Assembly: GCF_002176815.1 (NCBI RefSeq)
Contig: NZ_CP021648.1
Span: 2,054,001 to 2,118,000, forward strand
DNA: 64,000 nucleotides
Direction: 5' to 3'
Source: Acidovorax sp. T1
GTDB lineage: Bacteria; Pseudomonadota; Gammaproteobacteria; Burkholderiales; Burkholderiaceae_C
Shown: positions 8,464-63,337 of the stretch, in pieces
Layout: every line of letters starts with the position of its first letter
How positions within the stretch are numbered: position 1 is the first letter of the stretch
Notes under the pieces: model-generated
Told to the model about the DNA's origin: nothing
What the model saw: only the letters and a program-made list of their open reading frames with translations
Database searches by the model: none
Program-made: the position numbers and the translations under genes

Positions 8464-8994
8464 ATGAATCCTCGTTTCACCCTGTCGATTCTGTCGTCGC
8501 TGGTGGCTGCTGTCGCCCTGGCAGGCTGCGCATCGCACCCCGCGGGCAACCGCGCCGCAGCCAAACTGGAGCCCACCCGCGGCAGCACGACCACCGGTAC
8601 CGTGACCTTTGTCCAGACCGGCGGTGGCGTGCAAGTGTCCGGGGAAATCCGCGGCCTCAAGCCCGGTGCCGAGCATGGCTTTCATATCCACGAAAAAGGC
8701 GATTGCTCCAGCGGCGACGGCATGAGCACGGGCGGCCACTTCAACCCCGGCGGCAAAGCCCACGGCCACCACGGCATGGGCGACCACCACACCGGCGACC
8801 TGCCCAGCCTCAAGGCCGACGCCAACGGCGTGGCCACGTTGAACTTTGAATCCAGCACCATCCGCGTGGGCAGCACCGACAACAACATCGTTGGCCGTGG
8901 CCTCATCGTGCACCGCGACCCCGACGACTACAAAACCCAGCCCACCGGCAATGCAGGCCCACGCCTGGCCTGCGCGGTGATTGCGGCCCAGTAA
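8464..8994 (+). CDS. sodC: Cu/Zn superoxide dismutase, lipoprotein form
   Basis: Periplasmic superoxide dismutase of 176 residues. The start at 8464 is preceded by AAGGAG at a good distance. A signal peptide ends in the lipobox LAGC, so the enzyme is predicted to be lipid-anchored. Metal-site motifs GFHIHEKGDCS and GGHFNPGGKAHGHHG are present, as is the C-terminal region with GPRLACAVI carrying the second Cys of the disulfide. A terminator follows immediately, shared with the convergent MobA-like gene. Confidence 0.93.
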   Translation: MNPRFTLSILSSLVAAVALAGCASHPAGNRAAAKLEPTRGSTTTGTVTFVQTGGGVQVSGEIRGLKPGAEHGFHIHEKGDCSSGDGMSTGGHFNPGGKAHGHHGMGDHHTGDLPSLKADANGVATLNFESSTIRVGSTDNNIVGRGLIVHRDPDDYKTQPTGNAGPRLACAVIAAQ

Positions 8995-9013
8995 GCCAAA
9001 CACCCATCTAACC

Positions 9014-9043
9014 AAAGCCGCTGCACCGTGCAGCGGCTTTTTT
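9014..9043. terminator. Bidirectional rho-independent terminator
   Basis: AAAGCCGCTGCACC pairs with GTGCAGCGGC, followed by a T run. It lies between the convergent sodC and MobA-like genes. Confidence 0.88.
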
Positions 9044-9624
9044 CATGGGCAGGATGAAAGAAGGCGTGCAGCCAACAACGCCTCAGCCCGCTCCAACGCC
9101 TGTACGGTGTCAATGTCCGTCACCACACCCTCGTCCTGCACCGGCACAGCCAGTCCCCGCCCCTGCCCCGCCCACTGGCGCACCACGGGCGCGGCCCCCT
9201 TTTCACCCTGCAGCGCCAATAAGTCAGGCAAGCAATCCCGCCCAAACGCCACCGGGTGCCCCCGCTCGCCCGCAAACTCCGGCCACGCCACCACGGCCCG
9301 CTGATCCAGCAGCACCTGCGCCATGGCCTGCAGCGTGGCGGGCTGCACCAGCGGCAAATCGCCCGGCAACACCATCCAGCCCGCCGCATCCGCTGATCGG
9401 GCCGTGTGGCGCACAGCGGCGGCAATCGAATCACCCATACCCGGGTGCTCAGCATCCTCCACATGCCACGGCAAGCCGCTGGCGCGCACGGCATCCAGCG
9501 TGTGCTGCAGCACAGGTTTGCCCGCCAGCAAGGCTTGCAGCTTGTGCACCGTACCGCCGGATGCTTTAAAGCGTTCGCCCCGGCCAGAGGCGAGGATGAG
9601 GACGGTGGGTGGTGTCAGTGGCAT
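9043..9624 (-). CDS. MobA-like NTP transferase (molybdenum cofactor cytidylyltransferase type)
   Basis: A 193-residue nucleotidyltransferase of the MobA/MocA superfamily. The N-terminal LASGRGERFKASGG is the nucleotide-binding signature. LPGDLPLVQP carries the metal-binding Asp, and GERGHPVAFGRD matches the later substrate loop. Related enzymes attach CMP to molybdopterin for xanthine-oxidase-type enzymes. The IorA/IorB genes, which need that cofactor, lie about 3 kb away, with the integron relic in between. This makes MocA-like activity plausible but not proven. Confidence 0.82.
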   Translation of the reverse strand: MPLTPPTVLILASGRGERFKASGGTVHKLQALLAGKPVLQHTLDAVRASGLPWHVEDAEHPGMGDSIAAAVRHTARSADAAGWMVLPGDLPLVQPATLQAMAQVLLDQRAVVAWPEFAGERGHPVAFGRDCLPDLLALQGEKGAAPVVRQWAGQGRGLAVPVQDEGVVTDIDTVQALERAEALLAARLLSSCP

Positions 9625-9662
9625 GGGTGTGGGAAAGGCTTGGTGCTGAAGCCAGCCGCATC

Positions 9663-9842
9663 ATGGCATCCCTACGCAGCAACGGCTGGGCCGTGACCGG
9701 TAAACTGCGCCGAGATCAGCCGGACATCTTTGCGCCTGGAGAGCTGCTGCACCACTTGCAGGACGCGATTTTGGAGGCGGTGAAAGAGGCGATGACGCGG
9801 GTGATGTTGGGGAAAGAGGTGCAATCTGCGCGGTTGAGATGA
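9663..9842 (+). CDS. Short uncharacterised open frame beside the intI remnant
   Basis: A 59-codon frame from an ATG at 9663, ending just where the intI remnant begins on the other strand. It has a plausible mixed amphipathic composition but no motif I recognise. It may be the debris of a gene cut when the integron region was rearranged, or chance. Nothing here decides its function. Confidence 0.25.
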   Translation: MASLRSNGWAVTGKLRRDQPDIFAPGELLHHLQDAILEAVKEAMTRVMLGKEVQSARLR

Positions 9843-10106
9843 AGTGATTACAGAGCAGCAAACGCGCCACCTCGTCTTTGGTTAACGCGCTGGCAATGCG
9901 GCGTTTTTGGGGGGGCGGTTGATGCCGTTCAGCCAGGGCAACTCAATAGCAAGCACTTTCCGGTAAAGAGCATGGCTCCTCCACGGCCCGACCAACGAAT
10001 GAAGAAGCGGACCAGTAGACATATACCTGCTCGGTGCTGAGGCTATAGTGCAGCGCAGCTGGTCCAGAACTCGGGTGGACTGCAGCACAGGGGTGCTGAG
10101 TTTCAC
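9843..10106 (-). pseudogene. intI: Remnant of an integron integrase (IntI), frameshifted and truncated
   Basis: Read from a GTG at 10106, the frames in turn give RVLDQLR, then LHYSLSTEQVYVYW, then RFFIRWSGRG, then LYRKVLAIELPWLNG, then RPPQKRRIASALTKDEVARL. Put in order these match the N-terminal half of integron tyrosine recombinases (the SAM-like core-binding domain and the link to the catalytic domain). About 45 codons are missing between the third and fourth pieces, at least three frameshifts are needed, and the catalytic domain with its Arg/His/Tyr residues is gone. One shift lies in a run of seven G at 9911-9917. The gene is therefore dead. It faces away from the cassette on the plus strand, as in a standard integron. 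Confidence 0.75.
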
Positions 10107-10206
10107 AGGTTTTTATAACTGGACATATATCCAGCATATTGAATAGCAAGCCACTTTCAGGAGGGACACATGACCAACTTATTTTGCTCTGGACATTGCG
10201 TTAGCG
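10107..10206 (+). other. Presumed attI region of the relic integron
   Basis: This is the ~95 bp between the intI start and the first cassette. It ends in GCGTTAGCG (GTTAGCG at 10200-10206), a five-of-seven match to the GTTRRRY recombination core. The same heptamer occurs at the end of the attC-like site near 23215. The position fits attI; the exact crossover point is inference. Confidence 0.45.
10119..10134. promoter_or_regulatory. LexA-type SOS box upstream of the intI remnant
   Basis: CTGGACATATATCCAG is a 16-bp perfect palindrome of the CTG-N10-CAG type, 13 bp upstream of the intI start. Integron integrase genes are known to be LexA-controlled in many bacteria. A possible outward promoter (TTCACA near 10102, TATATC near 10126) would overlap it; that part is weak. 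Confidence 0.6.
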
Positions 10207-10223
10207 GGATCGGAGATTACTGA
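10170..10223 (+). CDS. 17-codon mini-ORF with strong SD in the attI region
   Basis: ATG at 10170 is preceded by AGGAGG at 10159-10164, the best Shine-Dalgarno in the neighbourhood. The 17-residue product has no recognisable motif. It crosses the presumed attI/cassette junction and stops 30 bp before the cassette start. Short attI-borne ORFs in class 1 integrons are known to help translation of the first cassette, so it may act as a translational enhancer. It could also be a truncated leftover. Confidence 0.4.
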   Translation: MTNLFCSGHCVSGIGDY

Positions 10224-10253
10224 ACTTCCATTGCTAAAGAAAGGAGCACTATC

Positions 10254-10996
10254 TTGACCAAAGACCAAAGACCAAAGACCAAAGACCAAAGATTAATGTA
10301 CTGATTGCATCAGTACTTCTGAATATCCTGTTGGCGGGACTTCAATTCACCCACTACCCCACATCTTTCTATAACAAGTACGTTCTGAAGTCGGACCCAG
10401 AGATCAAGTACTCACTTGAACGCTTCACCTTTCACTATTTGCCAGAGACCAATAAACCTAGAATTGCGTTTCTTGGCGATTCTATTGTGGAAGCAGCCAA
10501 TCTCCCGGAATTGCTAGGGCGGAATGATATTGTCAACCGCGGGATTTCTGGTGATAATTCTATTTGGATGCAGAACAGAACGAAGTATCTCCTTTCTAAG
10601 AAGCCAAAGTATTTGCTAATTGAAGGGGGAATCAATGACATAAATCGCAAAACTCCGGTGAAAACAATTCTTGAGAGTAAAGTCGCAATTGTTGATTTCT
10701 GTAAGAAGAATGACATCATACCAATCCTAGTAGAAGTCATTCCTGTGACCAGAGAACCAAAGGCTAAGTTACCGGCAAGTTCCTCAGAAATCAACAACGA
10801 AGTGAAGCTTTTAAATCAGCTAATTGGTGAATATTCACTCAAAGAATCAATTCCACTGGTTCATATGACAAATGGTCTGTCTGATGGTGAATACCTAAAG
10901 ACCGAACTGTCTACAGATGGGGTTCATCTGAACACAGAAGGTTACGCATTCTTTCGAGAGAATATTTTGAAAGTACTAGCGAAACTTGGCGCCTAA
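10254..10996 (+). CDS. SGNH/GDSL-family hydrolase in a gene cassette, start currently out of frame
   Basis: The body is an SGNH esterase or acyl-hydrolase of about 230 residues. It has FLGDS with the Ser nucleophile, NRGISGDN with the Gly, EGGINDIN with the Asn, and DGVHL with the catalytic Asp/His. Upstream in the same frame lies a hydrophobic span (INVLIASVLLNILLAGL), so the protein should be membrane-anchored with the enzyme outside. No ATG, GTG or TTG precedes that span in frame. AAAGGAG at 10240-10246 points to the TTG at 10254, which is one frame off: with five GACCAAA units it ends after 16 codons, while six (or three) units would join it to the membrane span. Its low G+C, its place next to attI and the nearby attC mark it as a transferred cassette. 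The substrate is unknown. Confidence 0.72.
10256..10290 (+). repeat. Five tandem copies of GACCAAA
   Basis: Five perfect 7-bp units directly after the presumed TTG start of the SGNH hydrolase gene. Because 7 is not a multiple of 3, gain or loss of a unit changes the reading frame downstream. Confidence 0.97.
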
Positions 10997-11025
10997 TTGT
11001 GATGATTTTAGAAAAAGGACCAAGC

Positions 11026-12193
11026 TAATGTAGTGTTTGATTCTTAATGAAACTTAATTGAGCAACCACGCTCCAATGCTCTACTACGGTTTGCATTGGA
11101 GTGAAAAATTGCGAGTTGCCCCGACGATTGTGTTGACGGATGAAGAGGAAAGCGAGCTGAGCCGGCTGGCGCGCTCCAAGCGCACCAGCGTCAGATTGGC
11201 CCAGCGCGCCCAGATCGTGCTGCTGGCCGCGCAGGGGCTGCAAAACAAGGATATTGCCGAGCAGCTTGGCATTGGGCGCGTGCAGGTGGCGCGCTGGCGT
11301 GAACGCTACCTGCAATTGGGGCTGCAAGGTATCGAGCGCGACTTGCCGCGCGGCGCACCGCCGGTGAAGGTGGATGTGGCCAAGCTTGTGAAGCTAACCA
11401 CACAGACCAAGCCCGAGGCGGCCACGCACTGGAGCACGCGCACGATGGCCGCTGAGTTGGGCGTCAGCGCCAGCACCGTGATGCGCCATTGGCAGGCCCA
11501 CGGTCTCAAGCCTCACATCGTGCGCGGCTTCAAGGTCTCGCGCGATCCGCAGTTCGTGCAAAAGCTCGAAGACATCGTGGGGCTTTACATGTCGCCGCCC
11601 GAGCATGCGCTGGTGCTGTGCTGCGACGAAAAGAGCCAGGTGCAGGCGCTGGACCGAACGCAGCCCGGGCTGCCGCTCAAGAAGGGGCGCGCGGCCACCA
11701 TGACGCACGACTACAAGCGCAACGGCACAACCACCTTGTTCGCTGCGCTCAACGTGCTCAACGGTCAGGTCATCGGCCAGTGCCAGCAGCGCCACACCCA
11801 CATCGAGTGGCTGAAGTTCCTGCGTCAAATCAATCGGGAGACGCCCAAGGACAAGACGCTGCATCTGATCGCCGACAACTACGCCACGCACAAGCATCCA
11901 GCTGTGCAGGAGTGGCTGGCCAAGCACCCCAGATTCAACATGCACTTCACGCCAACCTCGGCATCGTGGCTGAACATGGTCGAGCGCTTCTTTCGCGACA
12001 TCTCCGAGAACCGGCTACGCCGCGGGGTGTTCACCAGCGTGCCCGAACTCGTCTCGGCCATCGATGAGTACATCGCGCATCACAACACCAACCCCAAGCC
12101 GTTCATCTGGACCAAGAACGCTCGCGACATCCTGCAAAAGGTCATCCGCGCCAATAGCCGATTAAGTTCCAAACAGAATGCAACACTACACTA
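11026..12193 (+). mobile_element. IS630-family insertion sequence
   Basis: About 1.17 kb with imperfect terminal inverted repeats. The left end TAATGTAGTGTTTGATTCT and the complement of the right end TAGTGTAGTGTTGCATTCT agree closely, and both arms also share AACTTAAT further in. Both ends fall on TA, the target that IS630 elements duplicate. It carries one transposase and sits inside the outer arm of the attC-like site. Confidence 0.88.
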
Positions 12194-12194
12194 A
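11109..12194 (+). CDS. IS630-family transposase
   Basis: A DDE transposase of about 361 residues with an N-terminal helix-turn-helix (residues ~25-60, with NKDIAEQLGIGRVQVARW). The catalytic Asp is in CCDEKSQ, the second Asp in IADNYATHK, and the Glu in SWLNMVERFF. I favour the TTG at 11109 because GGAG lies just upstream and the product would begin RVAPTIVLTDEE, as related transposases do. The frame stays open to 11058 with an ATG at 11076. The frame is intact, so the element may be active. Confidence 0.9.
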   Translation: MRVAPTIVLTDEEESELSRLARSKRTSVRLAQRAQIVLLAAQGLQNKDIAEQLGIGRVQVARWRERYLQLGLQGIERDLPRGAPPVKVDVAKLVKLTTQTKPEAATHWSTRTMAAELGVSASTVMRHWQAHGLKPHIVRGFKVSRDPQFVQKLEDIVGLYMSPPEHALVLCCDEKSQVQALDRTQPGLPLKKGRAATMTHDYKRNGTTTLFAALNVLNGQVIGQCQQRHTHIEWLKFLRQINRETPKDKTLHLIADNYATHKHPAVQEWLAKHPRFNMHFTPTSASWLNMVERFFRDISENRLRRGVFTSVPELVSAIDEYIAHHNTNPKPFIWTKNARDILQKVIRANSRLSSKQNATLH

Positions 12195-12284
12195 CATCTA
12201 GATCAACCTGACTTATTTGGCTGTCACGCCCCTTGCAAAGCAAGGGTCGCGCCAGCCAAAACGCAGGTTATCTAGGCGTTGAAC
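12191..12284 (+). other. attC-like recombination site (interrupted at its left core by the IS630 element)
   Basis: A long imperfect inverted repeat with CTAGAT, AACCTG, TTTGGCTG and CCCTTGC in the left arm, matched by the complements GCAAGGG, CAGCCAAA, CAGGTT and ATCTAG in the right arm, around an AAA loop. One extra C (12204) is unpaired in the left arm, like the extrahelical bases of attC. The right core GTTGAAC at 12278-12284 fits GTTRRRY. Joining the sequences across the IS gives AGCTAAC as the left core, 28 bp after the hydrolase stop. Together with the intI remnant this supports a cassette boundary. Confidence 0.62.
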
Positions 12285-12527: not shown

Positions 12528-14813
12528 TCAAGCCAACTTAAACGGCAACTCCCGTGGCGTCTTGCCCGTGATCTGGGCAATGGCATTCGCAAACGCCGGT
12601 GCCAGCGGCGGCACGCCGGGCTCGCCCATGCCCTTGGGCGGGTCGGCACTGGGCACGATGTGCACAGTCACCTGGGGCATGTCGGTGATGCGCGGAACGG
12701 GATAGTCGCCAAAGTTGCTTTGCTCCACCACGCCGTCCTTCAACGTGATGGCGGCGCCCGGCAGGCACATGCCCAGGCCCATCAGCGCCCCGCCCTGCAC
12801 CTGGGCCTCGACGCTTTTCGGGTTGACCGCCAGGTTGCAGTGCACGCCGGCTGTCACGCTGTGCAGCTTGGGCGTGCCGTCTTTGACGGACGCCTCGACC
12901 ACATAGGCCACCACCGACTCGAACGACTCGTGCACCGCCACGCCCCAGGCGCGGCCTGCGGCCAGCTTCTTCTTGCCGTAGCCCGACTGGGCCACGGCCA
13001 GTTGCAGGGCGGCCTTGTGGCGCGGGTGCTTGTCGCCTATCAGGGCCAGGCGGTAGGCCACCGGGTCTTGTTTCGTGGTGCGGGCCACTTCGTCGATCAA
13101 GGTCTCCATGGCGTAGGCCGTGTGGGTGGAGCCCACGCTGCGCCACCACAGCACGGGCACATTCACATCAGGGTGGTGCACCGACAGCTTCATGGGCACG
13201 TCGTAGGGCTCCTTCATGCCCTCGGTGGTCGTGGCGTCGATGCCGTTCTTGACCATGAAGGCCTCGAACGGCGAGCCCTTGGTGATGGACTGGCCGACGA
13301 TGGTGTGGTCCCACGCCAGGATTTTGCCCTGTGCGTCAAAGCCGATCTCGGCACGGTGCACATGCATGGGGCGGTAGTAGCCGCCCTTGATATCGTCCTC
13401 GCGGCTCCACAGCGTGCGCACCGGGGCGTTGATGCCCGCCGTGCGCGCCGCCTTGGCCACGCCGCAGGCCTCCACCACATAGTCGCTGGTGGGAATGGCG
13501 CGGCGGCCAAAGCCACCACCGGCCATCTGGACGTGTACCTTCACGTTCTGCGGCTGCAAGCCCAGCGTCTTGGCGGCGGCCATGGCGTCCAAGCCCGGCA
13601 TCTGGGTGCCCACCCACAGCTCGGCCTGGTCACCATCGAGTTTGACGGTGCAGTTCAGCGGCTCCATGGGCGCGTGCGCCAGATAAGGGAACACGAACTC
13701 GGCGCTGATCTTGTGGGCAGCGCCCGCCAGCGGCGCCATGTCGGCCTGCATGGCCACGTTGCCGGGCTTGGCGGCCAGCTCGCGGAACTGCGCCAGCAGC
13801 GCGGTGGAGTCGGGCTTGGAGACCGCGCTGGTGTCCCATTCCACCTTGAGCGCATCACGCCCCTGCTTGGCAGGCCAGTAGCCGTCGGCCACGATGGCGA
13901 CGCCCTCGCCGCCCCGGTCGGTGGGCACGCGCAGCACGGCTTTCACGCCCTTGATGGCTTTGGCGGCACTGTCATCCAGCGACTTCAGCTTGGCGCCGAA
14001 CACCGGCGGGTGCGCCACTACAGCCGTCAGCATGCCGGGCAGGCGCACGTCAATGCCAAAGGCCTGCTGGCCGCTTGACTTGGCCTTGGCATCGAGCCGG
14101 CCCGTGGGCTTGCCGATCAGCCGGAACTGCTTGGGGTCCTTGAGCGTGACCTTTTCGGGAACGGGCTGCTTCATGGCGGCTTCGGCCAGCGCGCCGTAGC
14201 CCAGCTTTTTGCCACCGGGGCCGACGACGAAGCCCTTGCTGGTGCGCAGCGCCGAGGCATCCACGCCCCACTGCGCGGCAGCCGCCGCCACCAGCATGGC
14301 GCGGGTGCGGGCGCCCAGCTCGCGGTATTGGGTGTAGGAGTTTTTGATGGAGTTGGAGCCACCGGTGAGGTGCATGCCAAACGCAGGATCGACATAGGCC
14401 GGCGTGGCATCGCCGTGCACGCTGCGCACCTTGCTCCAGTCGGCATCCAGCTCTTCGGCCAGGATCATGGGCAGGCCGGTTTGCACGCCCTGGCCAAACT
14501 CCAGCCGGTTGATGGTGACGGTGACCGTGCCATCGGCGTCAACGCGCACAAAGGCCGAGGGCTGCTCAAACGGCTTGAGACCTGCGGGCGCAGTGGTTGC
14601 CGCAGCGCTCTGCGCGCCAGCCACCAGTGGAAACGCGCCCAGCGCAAAGCCCGACGCTGCCGACAGCTTGAGAAAGGTGCGGCGTGCCACGCCGTCTGGC
14701 GCATCGAACGCTCCTGAATCAGTAGCGCCTTGCGCTTTCTCCATAAGCGCTTGAAGGTGTTTTGGCATGAAGCGGTGTGCCTGACCGTGCAGGGCGTTGG
14801 AATCGAAGTGCAT
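12528..14813 (-). CDS. iorB: Molybdopterin-binding subunit of an IorB-type oxidoreductase
   Basis: The large subunit (761 residues) of a xanthine-oxidase-family enzyme of the isoquinoline 1-oxidoreductase/aldehyde dehydrogenase type. It hydroxylates N-heterocycles or aldehydes in the periplasm. A Tat signal ([13 protein letters not shown]) lies near residues 44-56. Further in are the GGGFGRR loop, [17 protein letters not shown], and [11 protein letters not shown] with the probable catalytic Glu near the C-terminus. The ATG at 14813 has GGAG upstream. It follows iorA by 11 bp. Residues ~17-31, ahead of the Tat motif, are encoded by a CR1 repeat copy, an odd leader extension. The substrate is not predictable. 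Confidence 0.87.
14721..14765 (-). repeat. CR1 dispersed repeat inside the iorB leader
   Basis: On the plus strand it reads TAGCGCCTTGCGCTTTCTCC, then ATAAGCGCTTGAAGG. It is collinear with intergenic CR1 copies but lies in frame within the leader of iorB, before the Tat motif. Confidence 0.65.
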
Positions 14814-14824
14814 GGTTTTCTCCT

Positions 14825-15283
14825 TCAAGCCAGGGTTTTGGCAGCGTCGTGGATGGCGGCGCGGATGCGCACATAGGTGCCGCAGCGGCACACGTTGCCC
14901 GCCATGGCGGCGTCAATGTCGGCGTCGGTGGGCTTCTTTTGGCCTTTGAGCAGCGCGGTGGCGCTCATGATCTGGCCGCTTTGGCAGTAGCCGCACTGCG
15001 CCACATCGTGCTTCACCCAGGCTGCGTGCACGGCCTGGCCCACCTTGTCCTGGGCCACGGCCTCGATGGTGGTGATCTTCTGGCCCGCCGCCGCCGAGAT
15101 GGGCGTGATGCACGAGCGCACCGGCGCGCCGTTCAGGTGCACCGTGCAGGCGCCGCACAAGGCCTGGCCGCAGCCAAACTTGGTGCCAGTCATGCCCAAC
15201 GTGTCGCGCAAGGCCCAGAGGATGGGGGTGGATTCATCGGCGTCCACAGCCGTGTCTTTGCCGTTGATATTGAGGGTGGGCAT
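14825..15283 (-). CDS. iorA: [2Fe-2S] subunit of an IorA-type oxidoreductase
   Basis: A 152-residue small subunit that passes electrons from the molybdenum site. The plant-type ferredoxin cluster is bound by [12 protein letters not shown] and a following Cys at VRSC. The second cluster is bound by QCGYCQSG and NVCRCGTY. The ATG at 15283 has AGGAG upstream; the frame stays open further but without support. It lies 11 bp ahead of iorB, the usual order. No signal peptide is present, so it is probably exported with IorB by the Tat route. Confidence 0.9.
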
Positions 15284-15448
15284 CGTGGGTTCTCCTGGGG
15301 GAAAGAGGTAATTCATGGGGTGCACGCAGGGGCGCGCATTCAGCCAGCATGGCACATTACGCCTTTTGTGCATCCCTGCGCTCGCAGAAGGTTACTTGGT
15401 GCATCGGCTGGGCCGCCTGCCTGCACATGGGCGTGCACAATCGTGCCC

Positions 15449-34656: not shown

Positions 34657-34690
34657 TGACCCCAATTACTCCATGACCCCAATTACTCCA
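34657..34690 (+). repeat. 17-bp perfect tandem duplication
   Basis: TGACCCCAATTACTCCA occurs twice in a row between tolC and the HPP gene, preceded by GGAAATTGGAATC. The motif resembles short dispersed sequences in related genomes. Confidence 0.8.
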
Positions 34691-62279: not shown

Positions 62280-63337
62280 GGCCTGTCCTTGTTAAGCCAC
62301 TGCCTCCCTAGGGCAGTCAATTGGTATTTTTGGAGCCGACTGTTCGGCTTCTCTGGCACGGTCATTTGCACAAGCCCAGCACCCAACGCGGGCCGCACAT
62401 ACAGCGCCATAAAGTTGGGTCGGTGCACCAAGCCCAATGCCTGCATCAGCGCTTGCAAGCTCAGTGTTTGATCGCCCAGCACATTCATCAGGCGCTCGAC
62501 TTGTTCGGTGACTTGTTCGGTGACTTGTTCGGTGACTTCGGGGGCAACCAGGACTTCGACTTGTTCGGCCTGCTTTTGCCCAGCCCGCAGCACCTTCAAA
62601 TACGCCGGGTCAAACGCAAACTCCAGCCACATATCGTTGGGCTCATAGCGCAGCACCGGTTTGGGCGACCCCGCTGCTTCGCAGGCCGCAAAAATCCGCT
62701 CCACCCCACGGCCCCAGGCCTCAATCTCGCCCGCCCTGAAAAAAGCATTCGCCAGCGCCGGGTTGTAGGGGCTGGACGAATGCGCGCCCAGCAGCGTGTC
62801 CATCGTCCAGCCCTCGGGCAGCACCGCCGGGTTCCATAGGCGCAAGCGGTCTTCGTACACCCGAATTTGCACCGGTGCGGTCACCGCATAGTCGCGGTGC
62901 ACCAGTGCGTTCAGCACCGCCTCGCGCAGCGCTGCACGCGGCACGGGGAAGGTCTCCACACGCACAATGCCCTCGTATGAAATCACCGCTTTCAGGTACT
63001 TGGTCAGCAGCAAATCCAGCGTGGTCTGGGCCTGGTGGAACAAGTCGCCCTCTACCTCGTCGTGGTACAGCAGCTCGGTCTCGGTCTGGAAATACCCTAC
63101 CTTCACAAACGCCCCAGTCACAAAGCGCTGCGGGTCTGCCGCAAACAGCAAGGCGGTGGCCCTTTTGAAATAAGCGCCGTCTTTCAGGCGCAGCTTGTCC
63201 AGCAAATTAGCATCGCTCTCGGCCAGCGTCTCGGCATCCAGCCGCCCACTGCGCTGGGCCAGCTGGCGAAACCGCGCCATGGCCGGGTGCGACACCCCGA
63301 TGGCCAGGTCAAATTCCCCCACCCTTGGCCACCCCAA
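62276..63337 (-). pseudogene. ATP-binding AlbA_2-type protein, 5'-truncated by an IS21-family element
   Basis: The last ~335 codons show the HATPase-like FPVPRAALREAVLNALVHRDYAV and GWTMDTLLGAHSSSPYNPALA, with WGRGVERI further on, as in proteins with an N-terminal AlbA_2 domain often found in restriction loci. That N-terminal domain (about 150 residues) is missing; the coding sequence becomes recognisable from about 63287, where the IS end begins. Three TEQV repeats (12 bp each) join the domains near 62498-62533. A winged helix closes the protein. It overlaps hsdR by 4 nt. Confidence 0.8.
62498..62533 (-). repeat. Three 12-bp tandem repeats (TEQV linker)
   Basis: GACTTGTTCGGT is repeated three times on the plus strand, giving three TEQV units in the truncated ATP-binding protein. 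Being in steps of 12 bp it does not alter the frame. Confidence 0.9.

Follow-up and report, generated by a model that had tools for sequence, protein, structure and literature searches.

A heptanucleotide repeat at the head of an integron-borne gene in Acidovorax sp. T1 probably works as a translational frame switch. With somewhat better than even confidence, we read it as a NeuO-type switch on a membrane-anchored SGNH esterase, with the five-unit copy sequenced here in the OFF state. By analogy, it would be a heptamer frame switch of the known NeuO kind on another enzyme fold and another carrier. The gene lies in a 64,000-nt stretch of contig NZ_CP021648.1 (positions 2,054,001 to 2,118,000, forward strand; hereafter the window). 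Coordinates are window positions and features lie on the + strand unless stated otherwise.

Results

A perfect GACCAAA array begins at the last base of a candidate start codon. In the sequence, a Shine-Dalgarno-like AAAGGAG (10240-10246) lies 7 nt 5' of TTG 10254, and the first unit starts at the G of that TTG (10254-10256). The array (10256-10292) comprises five full units plus GA, or 5.3 copies over 37 nt at 100% match. The TTG-started frame (10254-10304) runs for 16 codons and ends at TGA 10302-10304. The frame of the membrane span and the PF13472 domain (10292-10996, 234 codons plus stop) is out of frame with TTG 10254 at five units; it is open from 10238 to 10996, and its first in-frame ATG, GTG or TTG is TTG 10331. 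In-silico translation of versions with 1-12 units gave a full-length product at 3, 6, 9 and 12 units only, and at every other number the TTG 10254 frame ended within 30 codons. The three-unit version encodes 242 aa, starting (M)TKDQRPKINVLIASVLLNILL. A preliminary description had reported the AAAGGAG, the TTG and the five units, a TTG frame ending after 16 codons, an enzyme frame open across the repeat with no start of its own, and restoration of frame at three or six units; all of this was confirmed.

Chance accounts poorly for both the array and the open frame. Among perfect arrays of at least four copies with a unit of 4-11 nt, GACCAAA was the sole one in the window and only one arose across 100 Markov-1 simulated windows, so we rejected a chance origin. 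At a threshold of at least three copies of a unit not divisible by three, the window held four arrays, GACCAAA included, against 208 in 100 simulated windows, which is near chance. The openness of the enzyme frame is not fortuitous, since 0 of 2000 shuffles stayed open. Three consecutive GACCAAA units occur at a single place in the 4.42-Mb genome, the array itself, and a search of that genome for two units with one mismatch allowed found no further place. Canonical -1 frameshifting over the array was rejected, as no X_XXY_YYZ site was visible by eye, and 9900-10253 yielded no sigma-70-like promoter. Elsewhere in the window are a perfect 12-mer repeat, GACTTGTTCGGT, with 3.4 copies at 62498-62538 and a unit divisible by three, and a perfect tandem duplication of the 17-bp TGACCCCAATTACTCCA (two copies, 34657-34690).

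This arrangement suggests a switch. Translation would begin at TTG 10254, and the G of this codon opens the array. When the unit number is divisible by three, the array would be read as TKDQRPK heptapeptides, giving the protein a cationic head before its membrane helix. Under the positive-inside rule such a head suggests an N-in topology with the enzyme outside, and in the ON state the catalytic domain would thus be displayed outside the inner membrane. With any other unit number the ribosome would halt early, five units giving the OFF state after 16 codons. Changes in unit number would presumably occur by slippage in living cells.

Judged by its protein sequence, a metagenomic relative seems to represent the ON state with three units. 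Our search of 5.8 billion proteins returned 60 matches to the window enzyme. The nearest besides the window's own was P0004 (76% identity, 98% coverage), a metagenomic protein from ENA represented by 2 contigs, the longest of 2040 bp. Its sequence reads MTKDQRPKTAILVASLLLNALL and its N-terminus is MTKDQRPK; three GACCAAA units spell TKDQRPK if the first of them shares its initial base with the end of the start codon. Like the three-unit version of the window gene, P0004 has 242 aa, and it is colinear with the window frame, with no relative gaps after residue 1. Its N-terminus, length and colinearity together indicate that a relative begins translation at the equivalent of TTG 10254, in the three-unit register. 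Read back from seven residues of protein, the DNA under this head would hold three heptamer units, and P0004 to that extent supports the start codon in the NeuO-type reading.

Other relatives mostly share the anchored layout and lack the repeat-coded head. A second search, with P0004 as query, gave 8 matches at E <= 1e-20, P0004 and the database form of the window protein (P0003) included, and added six relatives, five of them with 41-46% identity and the sixth with 35%. P0005, P0006 and P0064-P0067 have a short head followed by a hydrophobic stretch; in P0064-P0067 that head consists of MRK and a few more residues, and the membrane span follows. P0063 has 11 additional residues in front of the short head, and in P0068 the hydrophobic stretch comes almost at once after the start. 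The TKDQRPK head itself is present in 2 of 10 aligned rows only, those of the window and P0004. The P0004 N-terminus and its colinearity with the three-unit product, along with relatives that mostly keep head and span, lend strong independent support to the earlier proposal that translation starts at TTG 10254, that multiples of three are ON and that the window copy is OFF.

These relatives also bear on where translation really starts. The protein-database record P0003, from a cluster of 2 members, begins at TTG 10331, the first standard start codon in the enzyme frame, and describes a 221-aa ORF (10331-10996). Were this the true start, the product would be a soluble cytoplasmic enzyme and the repeat would be 5' untranslated sequence only. 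Such a start deletes most of the membrane span that relatives keep, and P0004 aligns gap-free from the codon after its own start, in the three-unit register; we regard it as highly improbable. Because most close relatives keep a short head before the span, the 221-aa call looks truncated.

A start just 3' of the array is also conceivable. A perfect 8-bp inverted repeat (10298-10316, GTACTGAT-TGC-ATCAGTAC) directly follows the array and spans the OFF stop codon; it could aid slippage or impede ribosomes. At the same spot a CTG (10301-10303), in the enzyme frame, overlaps TGA 10302-10304 as CTGA. Low-level re-initiation at this CTG would yield anchored enzyme at five units, and the repeat would then tune output with no off switch. 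CTG starts are rare and P0004 starts upstream, before its repeat-coded head, and we give re-initiation little credence.

The encoded enzyme is an SGNH hydrolase by both profile and conserved residues. It matches PF13472 at 66.8 bits (cut-off 32.9, E 4.5e-18), and S76, G96, N127, D221 and H224 are unchanged across all 14 aligned rows, which comprise the window sequence and 13 hand-chosen matches of the 60 from the protein search. We take these five residues to belong to the SGNH blocks. An AF2 model built from this alignment and the in-frame translation from 10256 had a mean pLDDT of 84.6 and a pTM of 0.76, with a helix at residues 10-32 and pLDDT below 50 at residues 1-6 and 33-48. The best profile match among solved structures was the sialate O-acetylesterase of Phocaeicola vulgatus (7pzg, E 5.1e-47). 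Fold comparison ranked a designed scaffold, 9hi6, first overall, and the best natural match was again to P. vulgatus sialate O-acetylesterases (PDB 7pzg, 7pzh and 6njc; TM on target 0.80-0.84). The SGNH fold is common to these and the window enzyme, whereas identity in the fold alignments is 24-29%. The resemblance to sialate O-acetylesterases is one of predicted fold and profile, and the likely substrate is an O-acyl group carried by a surface sugar. The preliminary description had spoken of an acyl-modifying surface enzyme; the fold agrees with this, the nearest natural solved structures being sialate O-acetylesterases, while substrate and surface location remain putative.

The AT-rich SGNH gene is an integron gene cassette, a carrier that the preliminary description had missed. 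On the - strand at 9857-10120 (ends approximate) lies a decayed intI remnant with deletions and frameshifts, recognized because its DNA aligns with the intI region of G024, a second genome of the genus, whose integrase matches TIGR02249 integrase_gron at 459 bits (cut-off 265). What is left of intI in the window is a set of fragments spread over several frames, and a large part of its interior has been deleted. Next to it, an attI remnant (10170-10206), aligned to G024 and to a further genome, G022, ends in the core site GTTAGCG (10200-10206). By alignment, we place the join of cassette and attI between G10200 and T10201, and the junction bases pair with R'' of attC. The cassette (10201-12278) measures 912 bp once an inserted element and its duplicated CTAA are subtracted, with the attI junction on its left and attC on its right.

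The attC call rests on fold energy and R''/R' pairing. Its left end, AGCTAA, lies at 11023-11028, with R'' completed by C12195 after rejoining; its right part (12195-12284) ends in R' GTTGAAC (12278-12284). Rejoined in the circular form, the 96-nt attC folds at -33.9 kcal/mol on the bottom strand (z -9.8) and at -27.0 kcal/mol on the top strand (z -6.6). R'' GCTAAC pairs over six bases with GTTAGC, formed by G12278 plus the attI-junction bases, and pairs more poorly with the adjacent R' box. Given the usual recombination point of such sites, we read this pairing as a trace left by integration of a circular cassette at attI. Chromosomal integron cassettes in general have an attI junction, a single gene and a folded attC, and the window cassette shares all three: it was inserted at attI beside an intI remnant, and its attC has a bottom-strand fold in which R'' and R' pair.

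Base composition and surrounding genes delimit the integron remnant. GC in 200-base windows is 38-44% at 10100-11099, against 62-71% at 8500-9799 and 63-67% at 11100-11799; intermediate values (49-61%) occur at 9700-10199 and beyond 11700. Flanking the remnant are a MobA-like NTP transferase gene and genes with molybdopterin-binding and 2Fe-2S domains (9043-9624 and 12528-15373), which may once have formed a single cluster. Between the intI remnant and attI, positions 10119-10134 read CTGGACATATATCCAG. The G024 counterpart, CTGTGCATAAACACAG, looks to us like a LexA box; relative to it, both outer ends of the window sequence have changed and the inverted outer bases are kept.

An IS630-family element has split the attC. 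The element (11029-12190, 1162 bp) has inverted repeats and a family transposase (ORF 11058-12194; NF033545, 276 bits, cut-off 100), and it is flanked by a TA-containing target duplication, CTAA, at 11025-11028 and 12191-12194. Four further copies in the genome are 99.8-99.9% identical and are flanked by CTAG, as against CTAA at the cassette. Insertion of the element as the cause of the frameshift was rejected, since it starts 32 bp 3' of the enzyme stop codon.

Decay of the integron makes a frozen frameshift the main rival to the switch. The repeat would have gone from an in-frame number to five units, leaving the gene permanently off in a cassette that decays with its integron. The integron is dead here, with intI broken and attC split by the IS; the array is short, and a single allele is known, as only one genome holds the gene at the DNA level, with five units. 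Against permanence, no stop interrupts the 234 codons of the enzyme frame and its invariant residues are preserved, in contrast to the wreckage of intI next door, so a frozen loss would have to be recent; a perfect array, moreover, can in principle slip back. We therefore judge a recent frozen frameshift unlikely, though a serious contender. Five units is short, yet NeuO alleles from 2 units upward are reported in the available text of PMC3046976. Likewise, 42 of 64 complete K1 genomes with neuO are OFF by repeat number according to the available portion of PMC13001214, and by that measure an OFF genome sequence would be ordinary for a switch gene of this kind.

Outside this gene, GACCAAA arrays occur where no frame is evidently switched. 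A genus-wide repeat family was unsupported, with the two-unit pattern present in 3 of 47 genus genomes and its backwards control in 4 of 47. Of 399 genomes sampled across the family, two had the three-unit pattern: the window genome and G020, a different species of the genus. The G020 array (L005:1495-1546) has 7.4 copies, lies between genes and is unrelated to the window array; it adjoins the 3' end of an apparent Lrp-type regulator gene. Four stretches with the heptamer were found in viral contigs, and in none did the surrounding context show an evidently switched gene start: L031 (reverse complement, 2610-2658) has seven units shortly 5' of the ATG of a long ORF, with no apparent frame switch, and L030, L032 and L033 have three copies each, the last two in identical contexts. 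Since such arrays exist without a switched frame, the array by itself is no proof of a switch.

The genome collections searched gave few or only remote matches to the enzyme. A DNA search, which could miss a diverged copy, found no match in the other 46 of the 47 genus genomes; six of them matched the array, the intI/attI region or the IS end only. An intI match at E <= 1e-30 was present in 20 of the 47, window genome included. Across nine stretches beside intI genes in eight genus genomes, no short array with a unit not divisible by three was found; the two short arrays there have units of 9 and 6. With P0004 as query, overlapping samples of the order, class and phylum returned only the window genome (1 of 399, 1 of 369 and 1 of 398; E <= 1e-20 or 1e-25), and the single window protein as query recovered 3 remote relatives at 29% from genome contigs. 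Plasmids (11 records) and phages (8 records) gave remote SGNH-like matches only, none above 31.4% identity, and no relative of the window enzyme was found in viral contigs.

Discussion

The window gene resembles NeuO, the polysialate O-acetyltransferase of prophage CUS-3 in E. coli K1, in the logic of its repeat. In the parts of PMC3046976 available, the neuO heptanucleotide starts two nucleotides after the start codon and restricts full translation to multiples of three; each set of three units encodes an RLKTQDS heptad, reported copy numbers range from 2 to 93, and activity increases with heptad number. The window gene likewise has a heptanucleotide array right after its start codon, would be full length only at multiples of three, and encodes a charged heptapeptide per three units, TKDQRPK in place of RLKTQDS. 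Both are horizontally acquired genes for acyl-group enzymes. NeuO is a left-handed beta-helix transferase, whereas the window enzyme is a PF13472 SGNH hydrolase with a membrane anchor and no homologue of NeuO. The carriers differ, a prophage for NeuO and an integron cassette here, and so do the unit numbers, 2 to 93 as against 5; switching is demonstrated for NeuO and proposed for the window gene. The oafA gene of Haemophilus influenzae, which to our knowledge is not on an integron, provides a second comparison. As described in the available text of PMC9558356, it shares phase-variable acylation of a surface sugar and differs in encoding an AT3 membrane acyltransferase and using a tetranucleotide repeat.

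Published accounts offered no close precedent for a switch inside a cassette. Searching titles and abstract starts of the open-licence literature, we found no phase-variable integron cassette among the matches listed (20 of 77 for the broadest query) and no paper joining integron gene cassettes with an SGNH hydrolase. Integron cassettes are usually viewed as controlled externally, by position and promoter, and no cassette among those matches was found to have a frame-switch repeat of its own, in contrast to the putative switch of the window gene. Slippage reported in the accessible part of PMC11023631 inactivates an integrase rather than a cassette; further mentions of integrons and repeats are a reference title in PMC11868660 and general remarks in PMC9607633, as far as their accessible text goes.

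We tentatively suggest, at a little less than even confidence, that integron cassettes can carry a built-in phase switch. The GACCAAA head would have arrived with the cassette, and a contingency locus would move between integrons and switch a surface esterase wherever it lands, independent of cassette order and integron promoter. If so, a slippage switch built into the start of a cassette would add stochastic control that the cassette itself carries. It would also be an independent parallel to NeuO, with equal heptamer logic and a similar charged head, on an enzyme whose probable role is the editing of acyl groups. The database entry for the window gene is a 221-aa protein that starts internally, so similar cassettes may hide as shortened or broken genes. 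The same genome holds a second integron integrase gene (G000:C1:2242628-2243623; L042, L061, L062), 58% identical to that of G024 and with one TAA reported inside; adjoining it, L062 includes a possible cassette array of about 4 kb with 49-57% GC.
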